Assembly (NCBI RefSeq): GCF_020520425.1
Contig: NC_079488.1
Span: 89,137,285-89,201,284 of the forward strand
DNA from: Spinacia oleracea
Taxonomy: Eukaryota > Streptophyta > Magnoliopsida > Caryophyllales > Amaranthaceae
Length of the DNA stretch: 64,000 nt
Direction of reading: 5' to 3'
The notes under the pieces are model-generated. The model had not been told where the DNA came from, searched no databases, and saw only the letters and a list, made by a program, of their open reading frames with translations. Made by a program: the position numbers and the translations under genes. Below, piece by piece: positions 46,634-49,995 of the stretch; within the stretch, counting starts at the first letter, position 1, and the number at the start of each line of letters is the position of its first letter.

Positions 46634-46969
46634 CTAGTCTTATATGCACGTGATGCGTGCAAGTATTTAAAAACTAAATATTATATTAATTATAGTACAT
46701 TTAATCACCTAAAAAATAATAATAATGTTCATATACAACAAAATTTGACTTCCCTAGTAAAATACGAAAATGAACTTGCAGTCTAGCATTAAAATATACT
46801 CGGTAATTTGAGACAAAATCACAATGATAACATTCACAACCTTTAAGAAGAAGAAAATACAAATACAAACCACGAAACTCAATTCACAAAGAGTAAATCA
46901 AACCTTTAATTTGCCATCGGCAAACCCTAACAGAAAAAAAAAATCCTAGTAAAATGAACTTGCTCAACA

Positions 46970-47061
46970 GCTCATATTGAGCTCATATTGATCTCTGTGG
47001 GCACAGGAGTTCGAGGGAAAACAGCTGCTTCATTCTTTCTCAAGACAAAAGTTCTTGTTGA
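46970..47061 (-). pseudogene. Candidate captured exon, unidentified
   Basis: After an acceptor-like 'atggatttgcag' the minus strand reads STRTFVLRKNEAAVFPRTP and ends soon after at a stop. Codon-like and uninterrupted for about 28 residues, but the source gene is not recognised. Confidence 0.35.
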
Positions 47062-48093
47062 TGCTGCAAATCCATAATAATTAAATTATCAACACCTAAT
47101 AAAAAAAATCCTAATACTGATCAAAACAGAAAAAAAACAGTAAATTTACTTAGGATATTGCAAACAAATCAAAACAACAATATGCATTTAAATCAAATGC
47201 AAGAAAAGTCTTGGGAAATTCCACCATATCAGATGTTTAAACAGGAGTAAAATATAAAATAAATTCAATCCAATGAAACCACCCACAAACTATGTTTGAT
47301 TAATAAGAGGTCAGAGGGGGGAATAAAAAACAAAATAAATGCACAGGCTATAGTATTGGCTTTAGTAGCAAGGTTGAAATTAAGAAAGACATAAAGCCTA
47401 AACTTCAGGTATCATTTGTAATCTGAGCTTCCAAGTCACCAAATTAATCATCTTTTGACCCTAGCACATTATCTAAGAGTGCTAGTAGCCAAATTTGAGT
47501 AACAGATAATTAATCATCAACAACATCAGAATCAAAAAATCACCATGAAAGTTCCTGTTTATATCAATGGCAACATAAGCGCTAGTCACCAAATTTTAGT
47601 ATCAGATACTGGCTTGGTTTGAAATAATTTACCATTTGTATCAAAACTGTAATTTAGACACATCAAATCAAATTTTATTGAAATACAAAAGAGAATACAA
47701 CATATGTTCGAGTCACGCTCCAAGTCCAAATAGGGATTATAAAAACCCTAAGTGAAGCAAAGAAGTATAACTGAAGATTTGAGATTGTTACAACTGAAGA
47801 GAGAACTGACGATTTGAGATAACTTAATACAGAAAGAATAAAAGCATCATGAAGAAATAAATTGGAAAAACTCATCTCAATCCTCAAAATAACAGTTAAT
47901 GACCTAGACTAATTGGACCATTGAATCATTAACTGTTTGACAAATAAACTCAATGATACCCAGTCATCCTAGTCTTTAATTGAATTAATGGACCATGTCA
48001 ATAACCCCTTTATGTTTAAGACTCGATGGATCATGTGATGACAAAATAACAATATTAGTTGACAAATAAACTCAATGACAAAGGCAGACTCAC

Positions 48094-48171
48094 CAGTCAT
48101 CAGGAGCTGCTCTGACTGCCTGATCAAAATAACTTTCAGCTCTTAAACTTTCTGAGTTTGCCAGGTCAAAT
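48094..48171 (-). pseudogene. Captured exon of a TPR protein (second part)
   Basis: The exon has an intact acceptor (tctatgcag before 48171) and donor (GTGAG after 48094). It encodes [20 protein letters not shown] then AAPDD, which matches the C-terminal repeat of a plant TPR-like family whose members read [16 protein letters not shown]. It lies 26 bp beyond the end of the other TPR piece. Confidence 0.75.
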
Positions 48172-48196
48172 CTGCATAGAGGGATAAAACATTTCA

Positions 48197-48262
48197 ATCC
48201 CCGGGATTTGCAAGTATTGCTCTTCCACAATACTCTTCTGCTTTTGCATAATCGCCTTTTAC
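48197..48262 (-). pseudogene. Captured exon of a TPR protein (first part)
   Basis: After a CAG acceptor at 48265-48263 the minus strand encodes [20 protein letters not shown] then GD, and ends at a stop. The [20 protein letters not shown] motif is typical of the same plant TPR-like family. About 14 residues expected between this and the next exon are missing, so the gene was shortened during or after capture. Confidence 0.75.
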
Positions 48263-49115
48263 CTGTTTCCAATCGCAATTTCACACATCATAAATCAGAA
48301 ACACAACTAACCATAAGTAAAGCAGAAAATTTTGGTATATTACAAACACGATCAAAATCTCGAATTAGACACAGTAATAAACAGGCTATTAGAAAGGATC
48401 TCTATGATTTTACTACTCAACCCACCAAATTATCACATTTCTGAGACGGTCTCACAATAACTTAAAAGCAGTAATAGATCGACTATTAAATCGGATCTTC
48501 ATGATTTTTCTCGGCCCACCAAATTACCACATTTCTGGAAAATGTAGGCAATAGTTGATATAAAAAAAGATACGGAGTAGTTAAAACTCAAAAAAAAGAT
48601 GGGAAAACTGTACAAAATATGCTCTTTACTAATGGCTGCCCTCTTTCTTGCTTCTGCATCTGTTCAGTTTAATGACTCGGGTATTACTATTACCACTTGT
48701 ACGTTATCAGCTTAAACACAATCATTTCGATGAAAAAGTATTAAAATTTTTCATGAATTTTTAGAATGCATGAAAGCCAACATTAAGAAAAAAAATATAG
48801 GGCTTTACTTTCTCCTAATGTTTTACTTGGTTAAACAACACCATGTCTATGCCATGTGAGAAAGCTCGAGCGAACAATCTAATGCATTATGCTAATTGAT
48901 ATTGAGTATTGATTTCGAAGTTGTAGTTATGACGAATAATCAACATTATCAAATAAAAAATACGGGATTAAAAACACAAACACAAACACAAAAGAAAATA
49001 AAGGGTGACACACAATTATCACCGACTTTCAAAAATCCAAAATATGCCTCCGAATTTCCTCAACTTTACCCCATCCACAATTCAAAGGCTCAATTCACCC
49101 AAAAAAAAAAACAAT

Positions 49116-49232
49116 TCAAAGGCTTAGATAAACCCCAGAAATTCGAGGATCGTAAGCTGCCTTTACAAAATTCTCACGTAACTGAGGCATAGACAATGTT
49201 TGTGAAAACCGAGTTTTCAACTGACCAGAAAC
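49116..49232 (-). pseudogene. Captured exon fragment of a chloroplast protease IV (SPPA-like)
   Basis: After a CAG acceptor (49235-49233) the minus strand encodes VSGQLKTRFSQTLSMPQLRE followed by NFVKAAYDPRISGVYL, then leaves the family and stops. In plant SPPA the motif 'LxxNFVKAAYDPRIxGxYLxI' precedes the first protease domain. Only this exon is present, so no protease can be made. Confidence 0.75.
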
Positions 49233-49297
49233 CTGAACTCCAAATAACATACACAAAAATCATAAGAGATAAATAATTAAAGTAATTAGTAAATTAC

Positions 49298-49366
49298 CCT
49301 TTTTTCCTTGCCGAAATCCTTAGAAACATTGGGAATTGATGCATTGATGATTGAATCGGACACCAT
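49298..49366 (-). pseudogene. Candidate captured first exon
   Basis: An ATG at 49366 opens 23 codons (MVSDSIINASIPNVSKDFGK...) that end at a GTAATT donor at 49297. It lies upstream of the SPPA-like piece but does not look like an SPPA transit peptide, so it may come from a third gene. Confidence 0.4.
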
Positions 49367-49995
49367 GATTGAAGATAAACCTTAAATTTGATTGAAACTC
49401 GTGCTCGTAGCTCGATCGGAGGTGACGAGTGTGGTTTAAAAACCCTAATATTCCAGAAACATCTCGATTGAAATTAAAAACCCTAATATTCCAGAAACAC
49501 CCAAAAATTGAAAAATAAACCAAAAGCAAAAATTAAACGCAATTAAACGCAAAAATTAAATTGAATGATTTACCTAAGAGAGAGGGATGTAGCGTGATTC
49601 TGAACTCCATTTCTTCCCCATTTCTTCCCCATATAATAGGGATAATTTTCCGATATTTGGAACCCACCATTCACCAATTAGATCTCGATTTTTTATTTTT
49701 TTACGGATTTTTTCGAGCATGTTGATGTTGCAGGAGATGAATAAGATCGAAGGAGAGGATCTGATGGGGGAGAGAGAAGAAAACGAACGGGAGGGAGTAG
49801 AGAGAAGAAAACTGGAGGGAGAGCAAAGGGTTTGTGTTGCAGGGAGGGAGGTGAGAGAAGAATACGGGAGGGGAGAGCGAAGGCCGAAGGGTTTGTGTTG
49901 CAGTTGAGTGCGAAGGGTATATTAGACTTTTTGCTTGGGGACACAAAAAGTTAAGTTACGAAAAAGATCTCAGGAGCTGGCTTATATAATAGAGA

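Follow-up and report, generated by a model that had tools for sequence, protein, structure and literature searches.

The locus analysed here raises the question of how a 3362-bp element carrying pieces of host genes came to lie in only one of two tandem copies of a genomic segment, and when those pieces were acquired. The window, that is, the whole 64,000-nt stretch of DNA under study, corresponds to C2:89137285-89201284 in a source genome of 894 Mb and 242 contigs. We favor, at a probability of roughly 0.93 overall, an explanation in which the element belongs to a multi-copy family of plant Helitrons, is non-autonomous and inserted at an A/T junction in copy B, its movement presumably helped by RepHel protein from another element. 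Genomic pieces of an SPPA gene and a TPR gene, and perhaps of others, would have accumulated in its interior beforehand, probably one after another, and would by now be decayed passengers.

The Helitron and its empty site

The window holds two tandem copies of one segment, A at ~9.0-30.3 kb (9023-30303) and B at ~30.6-59.5 kb (30554-59525), with multicopper-oxidase ORFs at 22591-26542 and 51458-52129. Comparison of 10 blocks revealed a patchy A/B divergence of 0.3-5.9%: 3.0% at 9.0-9.8 kb, 0.3-0.5% in three blocks at 9.8-19.3 kb, 1.1-1.4% in three blocks at 22.7-30.3 kb, and 2.8-5.9% in three blocks surrounding the main Helitron. The pattern points to gene conversion, complex duplication or haplotypes that were not merged. 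Copy A contains an LTR element (12983-15507), absent from copy B, whose 304-bp LTRs differ by 1 mismatch and whose single internal ORF, of 616 aa, gave no Pfam match. An insertion with approximate limits of 44140-45801 is private to copy B and has inverted arms of 121 nt (95% identical); A/B divergence rises there from 0.46% to more than 5%. An Rfam search of 44000-52000 gave no match.

The main Helitron occupies 46634..49995 on the minus strand in copy B, ~1.5 kb downstream of the C-terminal ORF of a multicopper-oxidase gene. It starts with TCTCTATTATATAAGCC, preceded by A, and finishes with ATATAAGACTAG, followed by T. Its 5′ terminus is thus TC (TCTCTA...) and its 3′ terminus CTAG, as is typical of Helitrons (5′ TC, 3′ CTRR). 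The 3′ end (46634..46661, minus strand) contains the hairpin TGCACG-CATCA-CGTGCA, with a 6-bp stem and a 5-nt loop, followed by 11 nt ending in CTAG; Helitron hairpins characteristically lie ~10-12 nt from the end. The fold of 46634-46680, which includes a second, A+T-rich hairpin, has an energy of -8 kcal/mol (z -3.94; equalled by 1 of 200 shuffles).

The corresponding site in copy A is empty, the A and T being adjacent at 20710..20711. When the copy B flanks of the element were joined, they differed from copy A by 1 mismatch in 60 nt, so the insertion point lies between A and T, and the target was not duplicated. The 3′-end motif alone (hairpin, CTRR and T) gave 5 hits in the window, two of which are one site in both copies, and 1-5 hits in each of 12 simulated sequences; the window count is not beyond chance, and it is therefore the sister copies described below, together with the empty site, that prove this to be a Helitron. 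No exact match to the 3′ end was found in viral contigs. The initial annotation had proposed a real Helitron, inserted in copy B only, on the basis of its ends, 3′ hairpin, A/T site and the empty site in copy A, and all of these hold.

A second Helitron, of 600 bp, lies in copy A (19929..20528, plus strand), where it runs from TCTATACTAATATATTAAAAGG, preceded by A, to CACACACTAG, followed by T. Copy B is empty at the corresponding position (46449/46450), the joined flanks showing 1 mismatch over 40 nt, and the main Helitron inserted 184 bp away. The ends of the two elements differ, and the hairpin of the second is weakly better than shuffled sequences (z -1.79; 13 of 200 equal).

Captured gene fragments and their donors

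The SPPA gene fragment (48788..49263, minus strand; element positions 733-1208) comprises intron, exon and intron, and matches its donor, locus L091 on contig C5, at 80%. Its exon (49023..49232, minus strand) reaches well past the peptide quoted in the initial annotation. In this exon, 4 nt have been replaced by 31 (net +27), and there are three in-frame stops; the inserted stretch repeats 13 nt of adjacent sequence and includes two of the stops, the third lying further on, and 1 nt has been lost beside the 5′ splice site. The donor, in turn, has three collinear ORFs that fall on positions 74-129, 127-176 and 174-231 of an SppA profile. This profile was made from the best 80 of 560 relatives, bacterial loci fetched with a plant bait sequence, and both of the two loci checked among the 80 are Peptidase_S49. 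The SPPA cargo pieces took ranks 1 and 2 of the 2046 window ORFs against the profile, at 9.0 bits each; since an unrelated window ORF reached 8.4 bits, the unjoined pieces singly prove little. The joined cargo peptide scored 26.1 bits without recourse to the donor, compared to 1.5 bits for the best of 1000 shuffles. Stronger proof of SPPA identity than these scores comes from the donor exons, which lie in the same genome. Aligned pairwise to E. coli SppA, the SPPA peptide did no better than shuffled sequences (984 of 2000 scored equally); PDB searches with the SPPA pieces yielded nothing, the peptide had no match in Pfam or NCBIfam, and an initial scan of the genome contigs with it detected no relative.

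The TPR gene fragment (48080..48541, minus strand; element positions 1455-1916) consists of intron, exon and splice donor, and matches its donor, locus L090 on contig C2, at 86%. The exon (48094..48262, minus strand) has acquired a TGA stop and a 4-nt deletion relative to the donor exon, which is open (57 residues) and is preceded in L090 by an ORF that looks like exon 1. Read through its lesions, the captured exon matched Pfam TPR_2 with an E-value of 4.6e-6 and 26.8 bits (cut-off 27), and TPR_14 with 24.8 bits (cut-off 23.5). A genome search with the TPR part, in which all 15 candidates were scored, gave among its matches six short ones of 37-44 bp.

The SPPA and TPR peptides named in the initial annotation are thus present in the sequence, and the donor genes that it had proposed to look for were both located, each matching its captured exon and the intron sequence as well. 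In other words, the cargo has counterparts in genes located elsewhere in the host genome, as in a gene-capturing Helitron. Maize Helitrons also capture introns; in the present element, the intron sequence in both fragments means that genomic DNA was captured. Given both donors and the sister copies, we consider the gene-capture reading to be right.

The element contains further exon-like sequences. An ATG exon (MVSDSIINASIPNVSKDFGKEKR; 49298..49366, minus strand) is followed by GT, and sister L093 has its 3′ end as well as the intron after it. The exon-like E3 (ASTRTFVLRKNEAAVFPRTPVPTEIN; ~46980-47063, minus strand) has counterparts with 82-85% protein identity in L092 and L095. Neither peptide had a Pfam match. 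An ORF with an ATG and a GT donor at 48599..48680 is a possible exon on the plus strand, perhaps the first exon of a TMEM220-like gene, and would run against the orientation of SPPA and TPR; its peptide had no match in Pfam, NCBIfam or a plasmid search. The claim that the cargo lies in one orientation therefore stands for SPPA and TPR, with this plus-strand ORF as a candidate exception.

Sister Helitrons

A genome search with the main Helitron returned 46 matches, with 40 of 849 candidates scored, and sister Helitrons, which the initial annotation had suggested seeking, were found in the same genome. They share with the main Helitron a 5′ terminal block of 438 bp (49558..49995, minus strand) in many cases; it is represented, besides the main Helitron, by 18 further rows among the matches listed (75-92%; element 1-438, or 37-438 in three cases). 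Of the sisters extracted with both termini, 9/9 are flanked by A on the TC side and by T on the CTAG side, and their interiors differ, so that the family consists of copies with common ends and different contents. The nine comprise L096, L097, L102, L106, L107 and L108 (2973-5469 bp; A...T flanks in 6/6), among which L096 and L097 are 99.7% identical, and L111, L112 and L113 (3988-4394 bp; 3/3), the pairing of ends in L113 being assumed, with other candidate 3′ ends close by. Four loci (L092, L094, L103 and L104) have a 3′ end followed by T and no paired 5′ end; L093, L109 and L110 have a 5′ end only, and at L105 neither end was seen. Two observations count against the favored explanation: the two 3′ ends of L095 are followed by G and A instead of T, and the 5′ end of L109 is TATC instead of TC.

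The longest stop-to-stop ORF is 115 aa in the main Helitron and 121 aa in the six sisters L096, L097, L102, L106, L107 and L108, and all seven elements therefore look non-autonomous. No RepHel match was obtained among the 8 main-Helitron ORFs scanned; RepHel defines autonomous members only.

Different parts of the interior are shared with different sisters. The 3′ part (46634..47766, minus strand), which contains E3, is shared with L092 in the same order, with gaps. L093 and L109 align to the main Helitron on either side of element positions 733-2229, and not inside, where they have a different sequence common to both. The segment 47229-47766 (element 2230-2767) is found in 8 other places among the matches listed, at 82-86%; in L093 and L109 its counterpart comes after the sister 5′ end. 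A TPR-intron piece (48376-48491; element 1505-1620) is also present in L102, L103 and L104, at 97%, and a neighbouring piece (48277-48390; element 1606-1719) in L105-L108, at 88-95%; 6/7 of these loci have the family 3′ end close by, the one without being L105. Since the two ~115-bp pieces are neighbours and occur in different sets of sisters, we considered whether this intron stretch is a capture hotspot, taken up repeatedly by different branches of the family, rather than a single capture that was trimmed later; we regard this as doubtful. No second copy with the same SPPA and TPR cargo was found among the 40 scored of 849 candidates, nor among all 15 TPR-part candidates.

Timing, decay and alternative explanations

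The order of events was approached through ungapped differences. The captured SPPA intron differs from its donor at 35/217 positions (16.1%) and the TPR intron at 19/242 (7.9%); the A/B flanks around the insertion, with the second Helitron trimmed out of the blocks, differ at 77/1755 sites (4.4%). This ranking (SPPA intron > TPR intron > A/B flanks) presupposes that donor introns, transposon and flanks have evolved at similar rates. The captured exons are closer to their donors, at 18/185 (9.7%) for SPPA and 7/169 (4.1%) for TPR. The simplest order would be capture of SPPA, capture of TPR, decay and reshuffling within the family, and insertion into copy B. The initial annotation had described the element as a very recent capture vehicle, which would mean that the cargo was taken up during the very transposition that placed it here. 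It is true that SPPA and TPR occur together in no other copy among the scored candidates, and that the TPR exon taken alone is no further from its donor than A is from B around the site. However, both introns are more distant from their donors than the flanks are from each other, and sister Helitrons contain the TPR-intron pieces as well, at 88-97%; for these reasons, capture was not very recent, and we consider simultaneous capture and insertion to be extremely unlikely.

Similarly, the idea that the captured exons might yield a chimeric transcript is weakened by the state of the cargo. The GT and AG splice sites, said to be intact, are there, but one exon base is missing at the SPPA donor site, and both captured reading frames have been destroyed, the exons being broken in the cargo and open in the donors. 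The cargo thus consists of decayed passengers without intact reading frames, and it probably lacks a function. One could nevertheless imagine an expressed chimeric gene, in which the ATG exon, ending in phase 0, is spliced in frame to the SPPA exon, beginning in phase 0, so as to give a short, possibly functional protein with a conceptual length of 61 aa. The intron would be merely 65 nt long, the frame stops inside the inserted stretch, and the SPPA and TPR exons are both damaged relative to their open donors, which makes such a gene very improbable; the 61-aa product is unlikely to matter. A more serious challenge concerns the duplication itself. If A and B were unmerged haplotypes assembled in tandem, the Helitron would be an allelic insertion polymorphism rather than a post-duplication event, as might be expected from the patchy A/B divergence and from the private insertions on both sides (the LTR element and second Helitron in A, the inverted-end element and main Helitron in B). 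Yet the window is free of any N, and both copies lie inside a single 114.8-Mb contig, and we therefore judge this arrangement to be unlikely.

Under the favored reading, a family member filled stepwise and inserted in copy B, the main Helitron would have moved by a rolling-circle mechanism. Gene capture is well-known behaviour of plant Helitrons, and the knowledge of these elements is unchanged by the present case. Its value is that, once the empty site, the sisters and two donor genes are known, the sequence of capture, decay and insertion can be followed fairly directly. Literature searches gave no account combining Helitron capture, tandem duplication and an empty site, no mention of the cargo peptides, and, for Helitrons together with SPPA, a single paper on Cryptons. 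Captured Helitron fragments are usually pseudogenes (PMC13317346), and the decay of the cargo agrees with this. The maize Helitrons that capture gene fragments have 5′ TC and 3′ CTRR ends, often with a palindrome, insert between A and T without target duplication, and carry several host gene fragments (PMC3288121, PMC2575219), apparently acquired stepwise (PMC3288121), in agreement with the capture order proposed here. Our element resembles them in its TC/CTRR ends, insertion between A and T, several gene fragments and apparently stepwise capture; it differs in belonging to another family, and in having two identified donors and a decayed cargo. Helraiser/Helibat is an autonomous bat element, unlike the main Helitron, in which there is no RepHel-sized ORF, and the two are alike in their TC...CTAG ends, a hairpin placed 11 nt before the 3′ end and insertion between A and T (PMC4778049).
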